The notes under the pieces were generated by a model. That model saw nothing but the letters and a program-made list of their open reading frames with translations, searched no databases and was not told the origin of the DNA. DNA of 48,651 nucleotides, taken from positions 1 to 48,651 of the IMG/VR virus record IMGVR_UViG_3300032242_003441; one strand, given 5' to 3'. This DNA comes from a virus. Both the position numbers and the translations under genes were made by a program. The first letter of the stretch is position 1. Every line of letters begins with the position of its first letter. This document shows, one piece after another, positions 4,244 through 47,705 of this stretch.

Positions 4244-7200
4244 ATGTTCGTCTCGCAGATATTTGACGAGGCTTCTGAAATCCTTGGGACGACTGACCAG
4301 AGCAAGGTTTTTCGTAAGCTTACGCAAGCAGTACAGGCTCTTATGGAGTCTGGTCACTGGTTTCATACCCAAGCCGAAGTCGATGTTTGTACCGGCTGGG
4401 ATGGCTGCACAATAACTCTGCCTCGGGGAATCGAAGTTCCTCTTGCCGTCAACATTGACGGGTCCCCATTGTATTTCCGGGGACGTTTGTTCCAATACAA
4501 CGTCAACAAGGGTGGCATGTACAACACCGTTGGATGGTGCTGGGACGACCGCGGGTTTGTTGCCACCCAGATGGACATCCGCCAGCCCGCTCAGGTTATT
4601 GCGGTTGCAGAATCTGACGCTGACGTAGGAAAGACGCTTCGTTTGGTGGGTACGGATACCAACAATCGAGAACTTCGCACACAGCTTCCTGATGGAACCG
4701 GTGTTGACGGTCTGCTTGTTCAGGTACATAGCCAGTCTGATTTCCAGCTCGGAACAATTGTTCCGGATGGGAACACAATCGTAACCCGGGACGCAGCAAT
4801 TACTCCGTTTAACGAGTTTTCTTCTTCTACCCCACATCAATTAGAATCTGGTCAGGCAATGATCCTGAGTTCGGCTACTGGCACTGTGCCAACAGGGCTT
4901 ACCGTTTCTGATCAATACTACGTTGGCGTCGTTAACCCTACCACCATCCAGCTATACAAGGATCCCCTGTACGCTCAGAGCGGAGAATACCCCATCAACT
5001 TGACCAGCATTGCCGGCGCAGGGACACTGACCCTTACCGACCAGCGAAACGCTAGTTTGGTAACCGCGGTTCAATTATCTTCGGCGCCTACAATCACGCT
5101 TAGCTCTGGTAATGAAGTTGTTTTCTCAGGGAGCACCCTTCCCTCGCCTTTAGTCGCTGGGGTTACGTACTTTGCAAACGTTCTTGACTCAACACATCTG
5201 CAAATTTTCTCAACAATTGCAGACGCTCAAAGTCAAACCAACCCAATTTATTTAACAGGTAGTACGTCTGCATTTAACATACAGCTGCGTAAGACGATTG
5301 CCCCGATTACGAAGATTAAATTTAATCTACCTCATCTTTTTGCAACCGGTGATGTAGTTCAGGCTTACACAAACGGAGGGACCCTTCCCCAGCCTTTGGT
5401 AATTTCCCAAAATTATTACGTACAGGTATTAGACTCGTTGACCATCGTTCTGCATACCTCAGCCGCCGATGCAACCAGTGGCAATAATCCAATCATACTA
5501 ACCACTTCGGGGTCTGGACAGAATACCCTCAACAAGTTAATCCCAGCAACAGCACAGACTGGTAAAACTAGCCAGATTACCGCTCCCGGGTTTTCATTGC
5601 CTACCGCTACCGGTTCGGGGGCTACAATAAATGCCGTTGTCTCAGGCCCAGTTACGTCTTTAACAATTTCCAATGTAGGCAGTGGGTATACCTCAGCCCC
5701 CACCGTTACGATTACCGGTGGCGGGGGATATGGAGCAACAGCACACGCAATTGTAGGAACCGTTTCCGGTACTTCTCAATATCAGACCGTTATTGCTGTA
5801 GTTCTTGACCAGCCCGGACAAGGTTACACCTCTACGCCAACCGTAGTTTTCTCTGGTGGCGGGGGTTCTAACGCTGCGGCCACTGCTAGCGTTACCTATT
5901 CTTTTGTAACTCAGTACAACATCGTAAACGGGGGAAGCGGATATACGGTACCTCCCTCAATTTCTTTCCCGACAGTTTCCCCGGGCCAAACGGTTCCCGT
6001 GGCCACTACGGGAATCTCTGACGGAGCGATAAACCACATCACCGTTTCTAACGGTGGCACTGGGTATACAACCGCTCCCACAATTTCTTTCACAAATGGA
6101 GGAGGTGGGACAGGAGCTTCGGCAACCGCTTCAGTTTCTGGGGGAGTCGTTACGGCAATTTATATCACTAACGGAGGTTCGGGATATACTTTGGCACCGA
6201 CCGTTAACTTTGCTGGTGGAGGCGGAGCGAATGCAGCCGCATATTGCACGATTGCGAATGGCGTAGTCAGCTCGGTTACGATTGTTTCCGAAGGCACCGG
6301 ATACAACGTTGCCCCCGTAGTGACGGTTACCCCTTCAACAGGTATTCTTGTTTCTTTTTCTACGACAGGAACCCTTCCCGCCCCTCTTCAGGATGGGGTT
6401 ACTTATAGGGCAGAAGCTCCCAGCTCCACCAATACCTTTACCTTGGTCAACGATGACTATAGCCCTCTCACCTTAACCAGTGTTGGCAGCGGGCAGCTTT
6501 ATCTAACTATTAGCCGTAGCTTTTATATTGGGTTTACCAATACGTGGTCGGGAGACTTTTCCGGAGTCGCCAGCGGGGATGGGATTTATTTTGGCACTGA
6601 TTATTTGCTGCCTATTACTTCCCCCACGATTGACAATGGTATTACTCAGTTTTACATCAAGCCTCTTACCAGCACGACCGCTCAAATTTATTCGGACGCA
6701 GGTCTAACGACTTTGGTTACTGTCAGCCAACTTGGTACAGGACAGTCCTATTATGCAATTAAACAAACCGTTTATGCGGTAAGCTACAACAATTTGGTTT
6801 CTTTGAGCTCTCTGCAATATCTGCAAAACGGTGAGACGGTTCAATTTGCTACCACAGGGACATTACCGGATCCGCTCACGGCTTCTACAAATTACACAAT
6901 TCAAATCAACGGGTCGTATGTTCAGGTGTATGATTCCACGGGGACTACCTTGCAGGCATTCACTAGCTTAGGGGTAGGACAGCTATCTTTGGAAGTAATT
7001 CGTCAAGTTACTCCAGTATCCCCAAACACCATTACTTTGGCAAATGCGTTTTTCTCAACAGGAACCGCTGTCGTACCTCGTCCCGTTACCGGAGATATTC
7101 TTGACCCAAACTTGACCGCCGGTACGACTTATTACGTAAGACTGATTGACCCTAAAACAATCCAATTGTTTGACACGTTGGCTCACGCAAACAATATCGT

Positions 7201-14944: not shown

Positions 14945-17900
14945 ATGTCAACGCCCTCTGTGGTGACGGATACCGACAAGTTTTTAGATCTCTTGTCACC
15001 AAAGAAAACAGAAGAGGCTACGCAAACCGCGGAAGCTACTTCCCAGCCTGATTCTGCCCCGGAGGCTACCCCAGCCCCCGCAGCACCAAAGCAAGACGAC
15101 GCTACAAAAGATTTTTTTGAGACCCGACAAATTACAGGTGGCTATCCTTCAGCTACCCCTTCCGAGCTGAGTGCAGAGTTAACGGGGGCTCCGTCCCCAC
15201 ACCCCGAATTATTGAAGAAAGCGCAGGAAGGTTTGGAACCTTTGGCGCCTAATCAAAAAAATTCATTGCTGAACGATACGGATAACTTTCTTTCGCAATT
15301 AGCCCCCAAAGACAAAAGCGGTGAAAATGAATATGCGTATCTCGAAAATTCAGTAGCTTCCCGGGATCCAGCATTGCCATTAAATTCTCAAGAAGAATTT
15401 TTCTTACGCAGCTTGCCCGAGGAAAAGCGTCATAGCTTTATTGAAGCTCATCCTGAGGTTGAGTTGCCTTCTGATTTACATCGTAGCCATTACGAATATC
15501 GCAATCGCAAATCCGCACAGGGGCAATCCTTCGTCGAACAGGCCAAAGGGCTCGGTAAAGGGTTAGCCCAGTTTGGGCAAGAAGTTGCCGGAACCGTTGG
15601 TAAAGTAGTTGGAGACATAAACAGCCTTGACCCTACCGCAGGTGCTGAGATTGATTACGACAAGTGGACGGCTGCAGCTCAGGAAGCTAAAAAGAAAGGG
15701 TTACCGGTACCTAATCCCGGTCAGTTTAGGAAAGCTGCGGTACCGTACGGCCAGAGACTGGCAAACACAGGTACCGATTTGATCTCTGCCGGCGACGAGC
15801 TTCTTTCTATCCCAGAAGCATTCAAAGACATTTACCAAGTAGCCTCCAAAGGTGGATGGGATTGGCTTGATAAAAAGAAAGAAGAGCATGGTTGGCAGAC
15901 TCCTGAGCAGTCTTACCAAAACGATCTCGTACGTACCAAAATTCTACGTGAGCAGGCCCGTAAGAAAATTTATGCTCCCACCGCGTCACTTCGCACTGGG
16001 GCAGAAATCCTAAAAGGAGCGCAGGAGCTGAAAGAAGCTGGATGGTCGCCCGGAGCCGATGCGATTCAAGCTCTATATGGCGTGCATCTCACCGAGACGG
16101 CTGCCGAAAAGATGGCAAAGGATCCAAACCTTACCGAAGAGCAAGCCAACGCCGAAGTTTTCAAGGATTCGTCCAATTTACTCAAGCAACGGATGCAGAA
16201 AATTGCACCTGAGTTTGTGACCAAAGGTTATACTGAATACGGTAGCCCTGAGATCCGTTTTGCTCCCGTTCTTATGACCGGAGGTGAATTCGGGGTGCTA
16301 GGTAAAGGACTTGGCATGCTGGGGTCTACGGTTGCCCGCGGTGAAAAATTCTTGAGCAACGTAGGCCGTAACCCCGAGGCTATTTCGGCAGCCAATCTTA
16401 AACGTTTGCAAGCTGCCGAAGCTGAAAGAGGGCTGGTTGGACAGATGGAGACCACGCCGGGTTATACCACCGTTTTAACCAAGCCCTCGGTGCCCGGGGA
16501 AGTACCAAAGCCTTTACTAAACATACCAAGAGTTGGAACCGTTGCCGGTGCCGCTGGAAACTTGGCAAACGCCGTGGACAAAGCCATTGGCTATGCCACT
16601 TTACCGCTCGCTGCTACCGGACTAGGGGCGGCAACCGGAGGAGAAGGACATCGCGCCCAAGGAGCCTTTGAGGGGCTGGGATTGGGGCTTGGGCTGAAAG
16701 GTATCCAGATGGGTGCAGGCGTAATTCGAGACCTAGATCAAGCTGCCGAGCTATTCGGCGGCAAGGCAGTTCTCCCTTCTGACCTTATGAAAGCCGCCGG
16801 CAAGGCAGAGCAGGCGGCAAAGACAACTAAAGCCCTGTTCGGAAGTGACACTTTCCTAAAAGCTCTTGGCCGTGATGGAGCAGACTTCATCGCTAAAAAT
16901 GCGGTACCTCTGGCGCTCAAAGGTGTGCACGGGGGAACGCTTGCCTACGCAATGGGACTGCTTAATGACACCCCTTCGGAAGATATGCCTCAGTATGTTG
17001 CGTTTGGTACCCTGCTGTCATTAACTCCCGGGCTGCTTGGGCACGGTCTGCATGAGGATCCCGCAGAGATTAAATTACGTGCGGCTAAAGAAGCGAAGGA
17101 GACCAACGAATTTGATAACACGCTTGATCAGGATTCCCGCAACAACATCAGCGCATCCCGCCTCTGGCAGATGCACCTTGCAAAGCTTCGTAAAAACGTT
17201 TTCCGAACCCAACAGCAAACTTCCGATCTGCAATCCGATGCCAACGACCCAAGTTTGACCCCTGAGGAACGTGCTAAGCGTGCCAAGGCTGCAGAAGAAA
17301 GCCAAAAGGTAGTTGACTTCCACAAGGGTCGTCTAAACCAAGCTTTGACGACAAATATCGACACAATGGCTGAGTTTGGTCGCCAATTTAAGCTCGCGGC
17401 TTCACGGCTAAATTCATTCCTGAACGGAATGCAGAAATCTGGTCAAGACAACGTTGCAATGAAGTTTTTGACCACGGCACAGATTGCCGACAGCATTTAC
17501 AAAAACTCTCCCGACCTGCAGATGATGGCTGCTCGCGGGCAAGAGGCAGAAGCCCGTCAGCGGGCAATGGTAACGGCTCAGCAGAGAGGTTTCGTCACCG
17601 ATCCGGAAGGAGGTGTGCGTATTGACCCGTCGCGCCCTACGTTAGTTGTCAACATTGATAACTTGATGAACAACCCCCGCAGCGTGATTGAGACAATGTA
17701 TCACGAAGCGGGAGAGGCAGCTCAAAAGATTCCGCAGGTGTGGAATGCGATACAAAAGTCTGGGGTGCCGGAAATGCTTTTCAAGCGCACAATTAAAGAC
17801 GCTGCCGGCAATACGCTAAGGGAGACTCGGGGTCTTTTGAACGAGGCTGATCTGTACCAGATGTTCATTCACAAGTACGTCTACGGAATGACTGCCCCTG

Positions 17901-20900
17901 AGATTATCCAGTTGGGTAAAGAAATGGGCGTATTAGATGACCAGAACCCTAATCTACTCGATCCTAAAAAAGTGGTCGAAAAGATGAAAGGCGAAGTCAT
18001 CGCCGATACGCTAGGCGAGGGCTTTGAAAAGTCTTTTGTCAACGGAAGGCCGGCATTTGAAAATGTACGCCAATGGGCTCGTACCAAGATTGAGTCCGAG
18101 CGGGTAAAATCGTTGATTTTGAAGGTGCTCGGTAATGGGGGAGAGGATCCCCGCAACGTCCTTTATTCTCATCCTGCTTCCGGGGTAGGCGAGAGCCTTA
18201 CGCCAGAGGTACGCGCTTCAGTTTCCGAGGCAGTGCAGGCAATGCGTGATCTTGGCGGAGTCACTTCTTCCGTTGACGAAACAGGAGCTGTGCCGGGGGA
18301 GACTACCGGCGCCCGTAAGATGTCAAAGAAAGAAGTTACCAGCAATTCGTTGCTAGTAGACCGATACCTCAAAGATTCTGGCCTCGTTAAAACTCAGCTC
18401 CGTGCTGTTGTACTGGATGCCAACGGGAACCCAATATCCAAACCCGTTGACGTCAATTCCCCTAATTCTTTCGAGGGTACATGGGAAGTTCAGCCCGATG
18501 GAAGCGCTGCTCGCACGACAGGTTATGGGAATCTTCCTCCTGAGCTTTCAGGGGTAACGATCCCTCCGGGCGGTAAGGTAATCGTTGAGCATCAAGTCGT
18601 CACGGAACCGGATGGAGTAACCCCAGTCTGGAATGACCGAAAAGAGGTAAAGAAGTTACTCAAGAGCCGGTCGCAGATGATCCGCGACGCAATCACTAAC
18701 GCCTACAAAGGCGAGCCGGGCGGTATGCAGGCGTATAGCGCCGATAATCTCAGTTTCCGCGGCACGCTTACTCCCGACCAGATTGCAGCAATCCAAGCTC
18801 TTCCGGAAAGCATTGTTCCGCTCAAGATTAAGAATCACATCTTTGCTATCAACGATGCCATTAAAAAAGGGCAGCGGGTGAACATTGATTACTCGACCCA
18901 CGTCGGAAAAAACGGGGAGTATGTTTCCTCAGCCCCAACAATTCGTGACGTGCAATGGATCGGAATGCACTTCTCTAAGGATGGTAATTTTACGGGGACA
19001 GCCCTTTCTTGGAATGCTCTCCACAACAAATTCCGTCTATGGAAGCAACGCCTGCCGGGGCGTTTTGCCCTGTGGAACAACGATCCGCAGGCAATGTATG
19101 ATCAGTTCATTAACGAATATCTTCCTAACCAAGCCGCCGGCATAAAGAACGATACGGCTTTGGATGATGACCCCGAGATTTCCAGAAAGAAGCGGGACGT
19201 CTACAACGACTTTTTGAACTTTGTCAACGCAGGTAACCGTGAGATCAACCCCGATCGAACTATGGTTCCTACCAAACGCGGAGAGAAACGCGGTGCGGCA
19301 GACAATGCACTTCGCTCGTTCCGACTCGATGCAATTATGGACATGGCGGACTCTCCGGTTCCCGGGGTTAAGCTTAATCCGGATGCCATTTATGCGAATT
19401 TCTTGCCTAAAGAGACAAGCAAACAAATCCCCACCCAAAAAGCTCCTGCTCAGGATGAAACCAACCCGATTCTGAAAGCTCTGGGAGTGGCACAGCGTAC
19501 GCCCTATGCCCAGCCTGCAAAGAACGCTAACCAAGACGTCCAACGTATTTCCGAAGATTACGTAAAAAATGCCGGTATGGAATACCGCCCGCACGGTCAG
19601 GCCGTTTCGGTAAATGAAGAGCTTGCCAAGCGTATCGCCGATCATTACGAGGAAGCCAAGAACGATCCGAGTCATCCTGAGGTCAAGAAGGCTTACACGG
19701 CGCTTGCAAACGAAGTTGTCGATCAGTGGAAGGCATTCGAGAAGGCCGGCTATACGGCCACTCCTTGGACTGGCGAAGGTCAGCCATACGCCAACTCGGC
19801 TGAGATGATGAAGGACGTGCGGGACAATAAGCACCTGTATTACTTCCAGACCAAGGAAGGATACGGAGAGTCTGGCATAACGGACAAGATGCGTGCGGAG
19901 AACCCGATGCTGCAGGACTCAGGGGTAAATTTCAACGGTGAAGAGAACGTACCGGTCAACGACGTATTCCGCGTTGTGCACGACATCGTGGGTCATGGGG
20001 CAAATGGTTACGAGTTTGGGCCGAAGGGTGAGTTCAACGCCTATTTGGAGCACAGCCGCATGTTCTCAGATGCCGCCAAGCCGGCGCTGGCCGGCGAGAC
20101 TCTGGCACAGAATAGCTGGGTCAACTTTGGGCCGCACCTGCGTGACGAAGAGGGCAACATTGCCAAGAAGGGCGAGAAAGGCTACGTGCCTGTCACCGAA
20201 CGTCCGTTTGCTGAGCAGAAGAACATTGCACTTCCTCAGGAGTTAATTGACGCAGCCGAGAAAGAGGCCCAAGCCGGGACCAAGGCGGGACCAAGTTACT
20301 TGCCTGCCAAAAAACTCACCGTCCAGCACTCTTCCAAGGAAAAAGAAGGCAGCGTCGGTGGGGAGCTCGATCTCGTGCATTTCGGTGCCCACGGCCTCAA
20401 ATCGGCAGATCCAAGCAAGTTCGGCAAAGGCGCTGCTACCCCGGGAGATCTCCGCGGTGCCCCAAAGACCTACTTCTACCTGAACAACGATCGGAATTAC
20501 GAAGGAATCATGCGCGGTCGTACCCCGTACGTGGCCAAGGTTGACGGAAATAGCATTTATGACCTCGAGAAGGATCCGCTCGGTGTCGCCGGCATGTTGA
20601 ACCGCGAGAAGATGGACAACATGATCGAAGACGCTGGTTATGCCGGATACTTCAGCCCCAAGTCATACAACGGTGCCTTCGATGCCGTGGCAATGTTCAA
20701 GAAGACCAAGCTTACCGAGGTGCAACAGGGTCGCGAGATCTTCAAGACGCCAAAGACCTCAAAGTATTTTGGGGTGAATTATCTGCCAGCAGAAAAAGGC
20801 GTTGACGAGGGAACCCAAACCAACGAATCTTTACCCACTGATGAACAACAAACTGAAAGTGACACCCAAGCTGAAAGAGCTGGCATCCAAGCTGGAGGCC

Positions 20901-22570
20901 AAAGCGAAGACGACCGGAATCGACTTCTCGGCGGGCTTGCGTCTGTCGCCAGAGGAGCGCAAGGCTCAGGTGCAGAAGGTGTACAGGGAGCCTCGGGAAG
21001 CGCTTCTCGGAAAGAGGTAGAAGAGGCCGCTCTCCGCAAGCATGCGGAAGAGAACGGTCTCATGCGGGATCCAGAGCCATTCCACAAGCAATGGCAGCTC
21101 GATGGCTCTGAAGCCGGAGGTGAGCACCAAGTGTCGTTCCCTCCCGGGCCTGACGTCGTAAAGCGCACTCCGAACCCTTACTACCCGACGTGGGCGGACT
21201 ATTTTGACTCGCTGCAGATCCATAACACGCTATTCCCTAAAGCTGCCCTGACCTTCCGCGGCCTGCAGGATGTACAGAATGCCGGTACCGACATTGACGG
21301 CACCAAGTGGCCTTCTGGCCTCTACTCCGAGGTGTCGCAGCCGTTCCTGAAGATCAAGCGTGGCCTCAGCGTTCCCGAGACCGATGCAATGATGAAGGAA
21401 ATCGGCTTCCGTCGCACCCTGCCGATGGAATACGTCAACGACGATCTCGGTATCAAGATCAAAGACTTACACGGCATGAACGCCGTCATGCTTGAGGACG
21501 AGAATGGCAAGGAGTTCCCTTACGTTATCGACTCGACAATCGTACCAACCGAAGCCAAGGAAGAGCAGCCACGGGTCAGGCTTGATGGACACGTTGTCGT
21601 TACCAACCCCGAGGCTGACTTTGTCGCTAAGCCCAAGATTCTTGTCAACTTCCTGCCGGCCTCACAGCGCATCAATCTCGAGGATTATGCCGACAGCCCG
21701 ATGTTTGCCTTGCCCGCCGACCGCATGGGCGTAGGAACCAAGTATGTAGGACCGACCGGTGACAAGAAAAAGCTCAGCGTAGAAGCACAGGGCGGACCTG
21801 AGCACATGACCTTGCTCAACAAGGGCGTCTGGGCATTCACCAACGAGGGACCTGCCTCTACCTTTGTCAACCGCGTCAACAAGCTGGCTGAAAAGCATGG
21901 CACCGACAGCGTACTCGTCGCCGTCACCCTGCAGAGCCCGATCAATCACCTAAAGAACCCCACCGGTCAGCTCGGATACGTTGAAGCTATGGAGCAAGCC
22001 CGCGACACCAAGCATGTCACCCAGAAACAGCTGGATGCCCAGATCAAGGAGATGTCCAGTGCTATCGTGAATAGTTCTAAGAAAGACATGGACGAAAACG
22101 TCCGGGCTAAATGGAAGCAGATCACTTCTTTCAGCAAATTCGCAGACGCTGTCCGCGGCAAGAAGCTTAACTTCGGTGACATGGAGCCATTCCTCGGTCA
22201 AATGCAGCGCAGCAAGCTCCCGATAAGCTCCAAAGAGCTGGCAGCAATGGGTCTTTTGCCTCACGACATCGCCCGCGACCTATCCACCGATTGGATCTTT
22301 GACCTGCCAAACGACACGGTAGTCGGTCTGTTCGAGGTAAAGAAGGGCACCCGTCCAACTCAGGACAACACCCATTATTCCTATCCTTGGAGCGTTGCCG
22401 GAAAGCCGATCGGATTCTTGAAGGACATCTACCATGTCAAGGGTTTGACCACGCACGAGGGCATCCAGAAGTCTACCAGCCTTGCATGGCCTCTCCAGAG
22501 GGCTCTCCCTGAGCTGGACAATCTAAAGAAAGCCCTAGCTGACCTACCCCCGGTCGTCAGGTATCGCTAA
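14945..22570 (+). CDS. Giant polyvalent virion/ejection protein
   Basis: 2541 residues. After a Pro/Ala linker come helical regions and Gly-rich hydrophobic stretches (~440-460, 548-600, 655-700) that could cross a membrane. Then: a degenerate zincin-like HEAGE (~919-923); a domain with FRVVHDIVGHGANGYEFG (HDxxGH ~1679-1684) ending in QNSWVNFGPH; an ADP-ribosyltransferase-like polyvalent domain (~1811-1925: VHFGAHGLKSADPSKFGKG, GYAGYFSP); a kinase-like polyvalent domain (~2093-2201: HNTLFPKAALTFRG, EVSQPFLKI); and a C-terminal polyvalent-associated domain (~2239-2530). Short [NS][FY]LP[AK] linkers separate modules near 1486, 1787, 1946 and 2237. Known polyvalent proteins enter the host with phage or plasmid DNA and act on it at once. 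Catalysis is not shown. Confidence 0.65.
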   Translation: MSTPSVVTDTDKFLDLLSPKKTEEATQTAEATSQPDSAPEATPAPAAPKQDDATKDFFETRQITGGYPSATPSELSAELTGAPSPHPELLKKAQEGLEPLAPNQKNSLLNDTDNFLSQLAPKDKSGENEYAYLENSVASRDPALPLNSQEEFFLRSLPEEKRHSFIEAHPEVELPSDLHRSHYEYRNRKSAQGQSFVEQAKGLGKGLAQFGQEVAGTVGKVVGDINSLDPTAGAEIDYDKWTAAAQEAKKKGLPVPNPGQFRKAAVPYGQRLANTGTDLISAGDELLSIPEAFKDIYQVASKGGWDWLDKKKEEHGWQTPEQSYQNDLVRTKILREQARKKIYAPTASLRTGAEILKGAQELKEAGWSPGADAIQALYGVHLTETAAEKMAKDPNLTEEQANAEVFKDSSNLLKQRMQKIAPEFVTKGYTEYGSPEIRFAPVLMTGGEFGVLGKGLGMLGSTVARGEKFLSNVGRNPEAISAANLKRLQAAEAERGLVGQMETTPGYTTVLTKPSVPGEVPKPLLNIPRVGTVAGAAGNLANAVDKAIGYATLPLAATGLGAATGGEGHRAQGAFEGLGLGLGLKGIQMGAGVIRDLDQAAELFGGKAVLPSDLMKAAGKAEQAAKTTKALFGSDTFLKALGRDGADFIAKNAVPLALKGVHGGTLAYAMGLLNDTPSEDMPQYVAFGTLLSLTPGLLGHGLHEDPAEIKLRAAKEAKETNEFDNTLDQDSRNNISASRLWQMHLAKLRKNVFRTQQQTSDLQSDANDPSLTPEERAKRAKAAEESQKVVDFHKGRLNQALTTNIDTMAEFGRQFKLAASRLNSFLNGMQKSGQDNVAMKFLTTAQIADSIYKNSPDLQMMAARGQEAEARQRAMVTAQQRGFVTDPEGGVRIDPSRPTLVVNIDNLMNNPRSVIETMYHEAGEAAQKIPQVWNAIQKSGVPEMLFKRTIKDAAGNTLRETRGLLNEADLYQMFIHKYVYGMTAPEIIQLGKEMGVLDDQNPNLLDPKKVVEKMKGEVIADTLGEGFEKSFVNGRPAFENVRQWARTKIESERVKSLILKVLGNGGEDPRNVLYSHPASGVGESLTPEVRASVSEAVQAMRDLGGVTSSVDETGAVPGETTGARKMSKKEVTSNSLLVDRYLKDSGLVKTQLRAVVLDANGNPISKPVDVNSPNSFEGTWEVQPDGSAARTTGYGNLPPELSGVTIPPGGKVIVEHQVVTEPDGVTPVWNDRKEVKKLLKSRSQMIRDAITNAYKGEPGGMQAYSADNLSFRGTLTPDQIAAIQALPESIVPLKIKNHIFAINDAIKKGQRVNIDYSTHVGKNGEYVSSAPTIRDVQWIGMHFSKDGNFTGTALSWNALHNKFRLWKQRLPGRFALWNNDPQAMYDQFINEYLPNQAAGIKNDTALDDDPEISRKKRDVYNDFLNFVNAGNREINPDRTMVPTKRGEKRGAADNALRSFRLDAIMDMADSPVPGVKLNPDAIYANFLPKETSKQIPTQKAPAQDETNPILKALGVAQRTPYAQPAKNANQDVQRISEDYVKNAGMEYRPHGQAVSVNEELAKRIADHYEEAKNDPSHPEVKKAYTALANEVVDQWKAFEKAGYTATPWTGEGQPYANSAEMMKDVRDNKHLYYFQTKEGYGESGITDKMRAENPMLQDSGVNFNGEENVPVNDVFRVVHDIVGHGANGYEFGPKGEFNAYLEHSRMFSDAAKPALAGETLAQNSWVNFGPHLRDEEGNIAKKGEKGYVPVTERPFAEQKNIALPQELIDAAEKEAQAGTKAGPSYLPAKKLTVQHSSKEKEGSVGGELDLVHFGAHGLKSADPSKFGKGAATPGDLRGAPKTYFYLNNDRNYEGIMRGRTPYVAKVDGNSIYDLEKDPLGVAGMLNREKMDNMIEDAGYAGYFSPKSYNGAFDAVAMFKKTKLTEVQQGREIFKTPKTSKYFGVNYLPAEKGVDEGTQTNESLPTDEQQTESDTQAERAGIQAGGQSEDDRNRLLGGLASVARGAQGSGAEGVQGASGSASRKEVEEAALRKHAEENGLMRDPEPFHKQWQLDGSEAGGEHQVSFPPGPDVVKRTPNPYYPTWADYFDSLQIHNTLFPKAALTFRGLQDVQNAGTDIDGTKWPSGLYSEVSQPFLKIKRGLSVPETDAMMKEIGFRRTLPMEYVNDDLGIKIKDLHGMNAVMLEDENGKEFPYVIDSTIVPTEAKEEQPRVRLDGHVVVTNPEADFVAKPKILVNFLPASQRINLEDYADSPMFALPADRMGVGTKYVGPTGDKKKLSVEAQGGPEHMTLLNKGVWAFTNEGPASTFVNRVNKLAEKHGTDSVLVAVTLQSPINHLKNPTGQLGYVEAMEQARDTKHVTQKQLDAQIKEMSSAIVNSSKKDMDENVRAKWKQITSFSKFADAVRGKKLNFGDMEPFLGQMQRSKLPISSKELAAMGLLPHDIARDLSTDWIFDLPNDTVVGLFEVKKGTRPTQDNTHYSYPWSVAGKPIGFLKDIYHVKGLTTHEGIQKSTSLAWPLQRALPELDNLKKALADLPPVVRYR
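20841..21020 (+). CDS. Possible overprinted gene inside the giant gene
   Basis: Reads in the +1 frame relative to the giant gene: 59 residues from MNNKLKVTPKLKELASKLEA to YREPREALLGKR. It looks like an ordinary charged helical protein, while the giant gene's own frame here is low-complexity (Gln/Gly/Ala/Ser). Either it is an overlapping gene, or two compensating frameshifts once turned a helical segment into a linker. No ribosome site is visible. Confidence 0.3.
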   Translation: MNNKLKVTPKLKELASKLEAKAKTTGIDFSAGLRLSPEERKAQVQKVYREPREALLGKR

Positions 22571-38838: not shown

Positions 38839-38857
38839 AGGGATTTAGGCTACCGTC

Positions 38858-38890
38858 CCCCGGCGGAGGGGTCAATGTCCTCCACCGGGG
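38858..38890 (-). promoter_or_regulatory. 12-bp leader stem-loop
   Basis: On the minus strand CCCCGGTGGAGG (38890-38879) pairs with CCTCCGCCGGGG (38869-38858) around a 9-nt loop. All 12 pairs form only in minus-strand RNA, because one is a G-U wobble that becomes A-C on the other strand. No U-tract follows. The gap to the ATG at 38838 is 19 nt. Confidence 0.7.
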
Positions 38891-38939
38891 TTAGGTTTAC
38901 GAGGGGCGTATGTTTGTGTTGGCGATGGTTTGGGACCAA

Positions 38940-40632: not shown

Positions 40633-40652
40633 TATGTATTTATGACGAATGT

Positions 40653-40684
40653 GCGGGGGCCGAGCATGAGCTCCCGACCCCCGC
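40653..40684 (-). promoter_or_regulatory. 13-bp bulged leader stem-loop
   Basis: On the minus strand GCGGGGGTC (40684-40676) pairs with GGCCCCCGC (40661-40653), with one G-U wobble present only on this strand. After a 2-nt bulge (GG), GAGC pairs with GCTC around loop TCAT. No U-tract follows. The gap to the ATG at 40632 is 20 nt. Confidence 0.7.
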
Positions 40685-40692
40685 TTCACCCA

Positions 40693-41497: not shown

Positions 41498-41688
41498 TGA
41501 GTGTTCTCGTTGGGAACGTAGCACTCAAGCTCCCGGGGGTTTGCGAACTGTGTGATGGGTACATCTTTTCCTCCCCACCAGCGCTCTGCCTGATCTCTAA
41601 TTTCCTTGGTCAGTGAGCGCTGGCAGTCCACTGCAAAGCGCTTGCAGCCGTCTCCGGTGCAGAATGTGCGGTCGTCGTAGCCGATCAT
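41494..41688 (-). CDS. Small Cys-containing protein
   Basis: A 64-residue protein: MIGYDDRTFCTGDGCKRFAV, then DCQRSLTKEIRDQAERWWGG and LECYVPNENTQ. The C-x4-C-x6-C spacing and the 'lTxExxxxAxRWW' helix recur in short phage proteins that may bind zinc. Overlaps both neighbours by 4 nt. Confidence 0.6.
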   Translation of the reverse strand: MIGYDDRTFCTGDGCKRFAVDCQRSLTKEIRDQAERWWGGKDVPITQFANPRELECYVPNENTQ

Positions 41689-41852
41689 TTTCCGTAGAGC
41701 TCTTCTTTGAGCTTGGTTAGAAGTTCAACTGAGCGCGTGTGGAAGAAATGCTTGTCCTTGGTGACATCGCCATCATTGACGATAGACCAATTCTTGGTAA
41801 GCCTTGCTTGTCTTTCGTGATAATCAATCAGGTCGAGTAGGTCGTGTTTCAT
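41685..41852 (-). CDS. 55-residue hypothetical protein
   Basis: MKHDLLDLIDYHERQARLTK, then NWSIVNDGDVTKDKHFFHTR and a C-terminal helix ending KLKEELYGK. Helical, His-rich, coupled by ATGA overlaps at both ends. Not recognised. Confidence 0.55.
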   Translation of the reverse strand: MKHDLLDLIDYHERQARLTKNWSIVNDGDVTKDKHFFHTRSVELLTKLKEELYGK

Positions 41853-42055
41853 GTTGTTTGGTTCAGGTGGTTGCGGAAAAAATTGTCCCGGCGGGTACGC
41901 TCCATCTCACGTTCAAGCTGCAATAGCTTTTCGTAAGCGTTGGTAGCGCCGGCATTGTATGCGGTTTTGACTCGTTCCTCAATTGAGGGAATGTGATTGT
42001 CGTAATCAAGTAGGAGTCGAGCTCCTTCTTTGTTCCAGTATTCTTGTGCGTTCAT
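41849..42055 (-). CDS. Small hypothetical protein with MNAQ start
   Basis: A 68-residue helical protein starting MNAQEYWNKEGARLLLDYDN; second helix YEKLLQLEREMERTRRDNFF. The start matches that of the gene at 40632. The leader contains the three-way-junction element ending 16 nt upstream, so expression may depend on that RNA. Confidence 0.55.
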   Translation of the reverse strand: MNAQEYWNKEGARLLLDYDNHIPSIEERVKTAYNAGATNAYEKLLQLEREMERTRRDNFFRNHLNQTT

Positions 42056-42071
42056 ATATTTATTAAGTGTC

Positions 42072-42150
42072 CTCGACCCGCTTGCCCTGTGCTTTTCCCC
42101 AGTCGTCATAACCGACACAGGGCTGACCTCACTCGAGGTCACGGGCCGAG
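42072..42150 (-). ncRNA. Three-way-junction structured leader RNA
   Basis: In minus-strand RNA, P1 pairs 42150-42142 (CTCGGCCCG) with 42080-42072 (CGGGTCGAG), 9 bp including one G-U. P2 is TGACCTC/GAGGTCA (42141-42135 with 42130-42124), tetraloop GAGT. P3 is GCCCTGTG/CACAGGGC (42123-42116 with 42091-42084), loop 24 nt. Only three junction bases (AAG) are unpaired. The single non-Watson-Crick pair works only on this strand. It is not followed by a U-tract. No known riboswitch or ribozyme signature was found. Confidence 0.65.
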
Positions 42151-42160
42151 AACAAAGTGG

Positions 42161-42400
42161 TTAATTACAAAAGGTGATTGATAGTTGAAGGTTGGGGTTA
42201 CCTTGTGGTTTGAGCAGGATCACGTTTCCGAGATCTTTGCTTGTCGTCTTGACGTTGTCCCAGCCCAGCGCTTTCTTGGCGCTGCTGATGATCGTACGCA
42301 AGTGTGTATGCTCACCGATCTCGATCTCCACTGGCTTGTGGGTCGATACCGGATGCCCGCGAAACAGGCGTTTGGTTTCGATTTTGTATTTATATGTCAT
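42161..42400 (-). CDS. Small hypothetical protein
   Basis: A 79-residue basic protein (MTYKYKIETKRLFRGHPVST; LRTIISSAKKALGWDNVKTT; QLSITFC). Strand-rich ends with a central helix. ATAACG-N5-CGTTAT at 42399-42415 forms a short hairpin at its start codon. Unknown function. Confidence 0.55.
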   Translation of the reverse strand: MTYKYKIETKRLFRGHPVSTHKPVEIEIGEHTHLRTIISSAKKALGWDNVKTTSKDLGNVILLKPQGNPNLQLSITFCN

Positions 42401-44647: not shown

Positions 44648-44695
44648 TGTATTTATGGGTTATATGTGTGGGTGTGGTTTCGACTGTCTGGAGAC

Positions 44696-44724
44696 ATGAT
44701 GTGCCAAGTTGCTTGGGAGATCAA
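44696..44724 (-). promoter_or_regulatory. Promoter with embedded operator
   Basis: Minus strand: TTGATC (44724-44719), 17-bp spacer, CATCAT (44701-44696). The spacer includes CCAAG-CAA-CTTGG. The A-tract upstream (AAAAAAAGTTG) and the downstream CCAGACAGTC match the sister promoters. The -10 is weak, so an activator or a different -10 register is possible. Confidence 0.5.
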
Positions 44725-47432: not shown

Positions 47433-47481
47433 AAAAAGTGTAAAAAAACGAATAGGGTGATGTCAGATTTCTACACTTTTT
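47433..47481. repeat. 10-bp inverted repeat near the leftward start
   Basis: AAAAAGTGTA (47433-47442) and TACACTTTTT (47472-47481) are perfectly complementary with 29 bp between them, 42-90 bp upstream of the first minus-strand ATG. The distance and symmetry suit a regulator site. The outer half overlaps the left arm of the larger inverted repeat. Confidence 0.6.
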
Positions 47482-47705
47482 TCTATTTGCCATTGAGCAG
47501 TCAAGAAGAAAGTTCGGAATTACGAATAGAAATGACGATTTTCGGAAAAGTATTCAAACTGGGCGATATTCACGATATTTTCCGACATACAACAAATAGA
47601 ACCCTATATTTCCTTATATTTAGAACTTTTTATTTTTATCAATTGTATTCGTAATCTTATACTTTTCTCTGTAGTGCTCAATGGCAAATAGGAAAAAGAG
47701 TGAAG
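47469..47705. repeat. 67-bp imperfect inverted repeat, divergent
   Basis: Left arm 47469-47535 and right arm 47639-47705 align without gaps when inverted, 50 of 67 bases identical. Two blocks are perfect: CTATTTGCCATTGAGCA (47483-47499, complement at 47675-47691) and ATTACGAATA (47519-47528, complement at 47646-47655), at fixed spacing. The 103 bp between arms are AT-rich and include TCGGAAAA/TTTTCCGA (47542-47549, 47578-47585). The arms point away from each other toward the two gene clusters. Confidence 0.8.

Follow-up and report, generated by a model that had tools for sequence, protein, structure and literature searches.

A conserved three-way-junction RNA between genes of uncultured phages

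The window, by which we mean the whole stretch of viral DNA that was analysed, comprises the 48,651 bases of one IMG/VR record. On its minus strand, a gene encoding a 79-aa product that we call the P2 protein (42161-42400) is followed by a small gene of 68 aa (41849-42055) and then by a 55-aa gene whose product begins MKHDLLDL (41685-41852). The first and third of these genes are kept in all three phages discussed below, and the small gene is present in one relative of the window (L001) and absent from the other (L005). The gap of 105 nt between the upstream stop codon (42161) and the ATG of the small gene (42055) is mostly filled by an RNA element of 87 nt (42068-42154, minus strand), whose extent and three-way-junction architecture were derived from its predicted fold together with comparison to its relatives. 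The structure predicted for the upstream protein from a three-sequence alignment has a pLDDT of 79.5, and its fold matches are weak and too low to interpret (best Z 5.5, with AcrIE2 among those near 5.4).

The minus-strand transcript of this gap is a real structured RNA that forms a seamless three-way junction. The 79 nt at 42150-42072 have a minimum free energy of -44.6 kcal/mol, compared with -25.95 +/- 3.47 kcal/mol for 200 dinucleotide shuffles (z -5.37), none of which was as stable. When 25 kb of the minus strand was scanned, the lowest z of any scanning frame coincided with the element, reaching -6.7 at one offset. The closing stem, P1, extends outward by an additional 4 bp (UGUU/GACA), in the relatives as well, such that the element spans 42154-42068. 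Its 14 bp join a 5' strand at 42141-42154 to a 3' strand at 42068-42081. The P2 hairpin (42125-42140) carries 6 bp, formed by 42135-42140 with 42125-42130, and a GAGU tetraloop, whereas P3 comprises 9 bp between 42115-42123 (5' strand) and 42084-42092 (3' strand). The helices are separated by a single A between P2 and P3 (42124) and by two A residues between P3 and P1 (42082-42083).

An earlier note on this DNA had already recognized three helices, three junction bases and the P2 tetraloop, all of which stand, but its helix lengths of 9, 7 and 8 bp and its total of 79 nt give way to 14, 6 and 9 bp and 87 nt. The seventh P2 pair that it proposed (U-A) is unsupported, as L005 has G and A there, and an alternative P1 pair that changes from U-G to G-C is supported. 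Similarly, the window copy contains four G-U pairs rather than one, and once P1 is extended the distance from the end of the element to the ATG at 42055 is 12 nt rather than 16 nt.

To look for relatives, both DNA patterns and the proteins of neighbouring genes served as scan queries. The RNA is present, in a single copy per record, in two other IMG/VR phages: IMGVR_UViG_3300032677_000031 (L001 and L004), whose DNA is approximately 94% identical around the element, and IMGVR_UViG_3300006120_000023 (L005), whose upstream protein is 75% identical to that of the window. Besides these two relatives, three DNA patterns run against IMG/VR and one run against GTDB contigs returned chance matches only, and no noteworthy result came from blastn against the phages of INPHARED or the plasmids of PLSDB. 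Five remoter phages, reached through a Holliday-junction resolvase that is 64-72% identical, carry neither the flanking genes nor the RNA, also with filters off.

No family of Rfam 15 matches the RNA, either with the window searched at the gathering score or with the local 451 nt searched up to E=10, in agreement with the earlier view that it resembles no known riboswitch or ribozyme. ARAGORN detects no tRNA or tmRNA in the window, and no description of the RNA was found among open-licence papers. One large screen of candidate structured RNAs reportedly covers viral genomes, and an unnamed entry for the RNA may exist in such large screens. Large comparative-genomics screens of this kind have been published (Fremin and Bhatt 2021, PMC8040213). 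Taken as a set rather than motif by motif, the candidates of that screen resemble our RNA in being intergenic, supported by covariation and free of an assigned function, with some near phage genes, and differ from it in that our RNA is known from three IMG/VR phages only. We conclude that the RNA is a genuine new family of small known range whose structure is well supported, new with respect to the families of Rfam.

Both relatives bear on whether the fold is maintained by selection. The L001 copy of the element departs from that of the window by four substitutions, all of which fall in stems and all of which keep standard pairs on the minus strand (29 of 29), an outcome that is weak when taken alone (P 0.27). 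The L005 copy differs from the window at 17 of 58 paired positions and at 3 of 30 unpaired positions. In a structural alignment that was fitted by hand, and which favours structure, with a one-base slip (a bulged U) and without one of the P2 pairs, every one of the 28 comparable L005 pairs is standard and six of them are changed on both sides. When substitutions of the same number and kind were placed at random, none of 20,000 trials kept as many pairs. P1 retains 14 of 14 pairs in L005 around the bulged U, with four pairs changed on both sides; P3 shows a two-sided change from U-A to C-G; and P2 has 5 bp and a GUGU tetraloop. With a plain MAFFT alignment, 96.5% of cells pair, compared to 32-48% when the partners are slid, and two two-sided changes are seen. 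Pair-preserving changes therefore exceed chance, as expected of a conserved structured RNA, and the compensatory changes implied by the earlier model are indeed found in homologous phages.

If read as the complement strand, the same copies retain only 23 of 29 (L001) and 24 of 28 (L005) standard pairs. This loss of four to six pairs indicates that selection acts on the minus-strand RNA, which bears out the earlier statement that pairing is preserved only in the expressed strand, and selection for the DNA itself or for the complement strand is rejected on the basis of the G-U changes. In the upstream gene, 50% of third codon positions agree when L005 is compared with the window. The RNA is conserved as RNA where neutral sites have largely diverged.

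Several protein-based explanations for the conservation were considered and rejected. First, a coding role for the element is contradicted by L005, wherein a net length difference of one base and different stops leave the frame unkept. Second, the upstream and small genes of the window lie in one frame that stays open across the RNA, which begins 6 nt past the stop codon, raising the possibility of stop-codon readthrough; in L005 this frame is broken by a stop and the small gene is missing. Third, a short frame through the core (VGYxDWGK) is without a conserved start or end.

The most conserved part of the element is the interior of P3, a feature that was missed in the earlier note. Here, a 22-nt apical core, CGGUUAYRACGACUGGGGAAAA (42093-42114, minus strand), is invariant at 20 of its 22 positions in the three phages. 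The nucleotides CGGUUAUGACGACUGGGGAAAA above P3 are predicted to form a short inner stem of 4-5 bp and a one-sided bulge rich in G and A. Several alternative inner pairings lie within 2-3 kcal/mol of each other, and covariation cannot choose among them because the core hardly varies. The loop UAYRACG matches the general pattern U-N-N-R-A and thus may be T-loop-like, a lead that comes from the sequence alone. T-loops often take up intercalated bases, including in the interdigitated T-loops described previously (PMC4810234), and the GGGG adjacent to the loop could provide intercalating bases for the predicted T-loop. The combination of drifting stems with a fixed apical core would be characteristic of a recognition site. 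No complement to the core of at least 11 nt occurs in the minus-strand transcript of the window, and hence no antisense target was recognized in the phage itself.

The placement of the RNA between genes is also constrained. Its start is fixed at 6-7 nt past the stop codon of the upstream gene (7 nt in L005). In L005, the MKHDLLDL gene begins 18 nt past the RNA, whereas in the window this gene comes after the small gene. Because the small gene is missing from L005 and yet the RNA is kept, we concluded that the RNA is tied to the position after the upstream gene, and its earlier description as the leader of the small gene does not hold. Consensus scans revealed no promoter-like site just upstream of the RNA and no terminator-like site in 42056-42160, and the nearest box of the promoter-like family described below, at 44724, is 2.6 kb upstream. 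The final stem is followed by GACACUUAAUAAAUAU, and the U-tract typical of an intrinsic terminator is absent, as had been reported. The fixed place after the upstream stop and the lack of a promoter-like site just upstream indicate that the RNA is an intercistronic element inside an operon.

We tentatively favour the hypothesis that the RNA is a cis-acting intercistronic element in a polycistronic transcript of the replication-gene arm, which would present its apical core to a protein and most likely set a boundary for mRNA processing or stability. The long P1 stem and the seamless junction would serve as a rigid scaffold that displays the invariant 22-nt core of P3, and this core might be the recognition site for a trans-acting protein of phage or host origin. 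The boundary would most likely separate the upstream gene from those further down, and the RNA would leave the A/U-rich region at the start of the next gene free of pairing. We favour a cis role at gene boundaries because of the fixed place of the RNA after the stop codon and because other conserved GC-rich hairpins occur in the gaps of this region. Phage mRNAs have intercistronic processing or stabilizer stem-loops, such as the RNase III sites of T7 early mRNA. Those sites likewise consist of a stem between the genes of a polycistronic phage mRNA and have no U-tract, but each is a simple long hairpin, in contrast to the present three-way junction with its invariant apical core.

The main rival explanation is that a stable small RNA is released from the operon transcript by cleavage to act in trans, for example by binding a host or phage protein. 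An excised small RNA would account equally well for an autonomous 87-nt fold that does not depend on the downstream gene: the fold is self-contained, is closed by a 14-bp stem, ends just outside both neighbouring genes, and is retained where the downstream gene is absent. We nevertheless consider this explanation rather unlikely, given that the RNA has neither its own promoter-like site nor its own terminator-like site and that the transcript offers no complement to the core of the length given above. A phage RNA built on a three-way junction is known in the phi29-type packaging RNA. The RNA described here differs from it in that the P2 tetraloop is not complementary to the P3 loop, and thus a kissing-loop ring would not form, in that the replication module has a DNA polymerase of the A type, and in the lack of an Rfam match.

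Three further proposals appear improbable to us, in equal measure. One is that the RNA might act on RNA polymerase as a nascent antiterminator by analogy with HK022 put, an RNA of approximately 70 nt whose two stem-loops lie just below or approximately 270 nt below early promoters (PMC9378689). Among documented phage RNAs of comparable size, HK022 put comes closest, and it is similarly phage-encoded, compact, structured and carried in the transcript of non-structural genes, here a replication-side operon. However, put consists of two adjacent stem-loops with a triplex near early promoters (PMC9378689), whereas our RNA is a three-way junction far down an operon, where the closest promoter-like box of the family lies approximately 2.6 kb upstream; no sequence match was found between the two, and no terminators that would need to be overcome were identified. 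Another proposal is a ligand-sensing riboswitch for the downstream gene or genes, as the earlier note had suggested among other roles. An invariant apical core within a scaffold of variable sequence is indeed aptamer-like, but no expression platform is visible: there is no terminator, the start-codon region of the small gene is unpaired in the predicted fold of the window with no occluded start detected, the downstream gene is not conserved, and Rfam offers no match. The remaining proposal, in which the RNA is a general structural 3' element that forms a strong block protecting the upstream mRNA or ending transcription without specific recognition, would be consistent with a position 6-7 nt past the stop codon and with the other GC-rich hairpins without U-tracts in similar gaps, one of which has a conserved stem and a freely varying loop. 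Such a passive block would not need a 22-nt core that is invariant at 20 positions amid drifting stems. Finally, a self-cleaving ribozyme is very improbable despite the three-way junction, the invariant internal core and the phage genome, because the conserved bases are apical rather than at the junction, no known core is recognized, and no Rfam ribozyme matches the local stretch up to E=10.

Beyond the cis-acting element that we favour, it is conceivable, though doubtful, that the RNA represents a class of phage RNAs that is new: a seamless three-way-junction scaffold would show a compact apical module (a T-loop-like heptaloop UAYRACG and a GGGGAAAA bulge), and this module would capture a small molecule or a host factor during infection, whether the RNA is free or still part of the mRNA. 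What has been verified is a structured RNA of uncultured phages that had not been classified before and whose well-defined 22-nt core is directly testable, and this structured RNA, missing from Rfam, was found by reading one raw sequence. Should the core recruit a host factor, it would offer a new and compact entry point into post-transcriptional control in phages.

Other gaps on the same strand also carry structured elements. A second conserved intercistronic RNA (40636-40692, minus strand; 9450-9496 in L035) is a 12-bp GC-rich hairpin just past a stop codon, with an invariant octaloop, AGCUCAUG, and an invariant 5' flank, UGGGUGAA. All three of its differences in L005 keep pairing and, as for the three-way junction, the following gene differs in L005. 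A third intercistronic hairpin, CCCCGGUGGAGG / CCUCCGCCGGGG (38839-38939, minus strand; 11274-11356 in L035), has a conserved stem and a loop that is not conserved, and in the remote phage L038 the corresponding gap holds an unrelated strong hairpin.

Genes on the minus strand show some unusual starts. The motif AUAAAUA is found 2-7 nt before several gene starts that have no Shine-Dalgarno sequence (for example at 44656, 42063, 40643 and 33085), which suggests a host with SD-independent initiation. We rejected the motif as a late promoter, as it is too close to these ATGs to be the promoter of the same gene. The unrelated genes that begin at 42055 and 40635, below the two conserved RNAs, share the start AUAAAUA...AUGAACGCACAA, and L005 lacks both of them, as though genes were gained and lost just below these RNAs.

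The promoter-like boxes, TTGnnnTCCCAAGCnnCTTGG then CAGACAGTCAAAC, are dispersed through the genome (44724, 33731 and 32311 on the minus strand; near 5110, 13849 and 14552 in L035), and their palindromic spacer suggests an operator. Elsewhere, the window encodes a polyvalent protein of 2541 aa on the plus strand (14945-22570) with a kinase domain (Pfam Kinase-PolyVal, E 7e-20), and near its right end, in an AT-rich gap, it carries a 63-nt inverted repeat that is 78% complementary (47473-47701).
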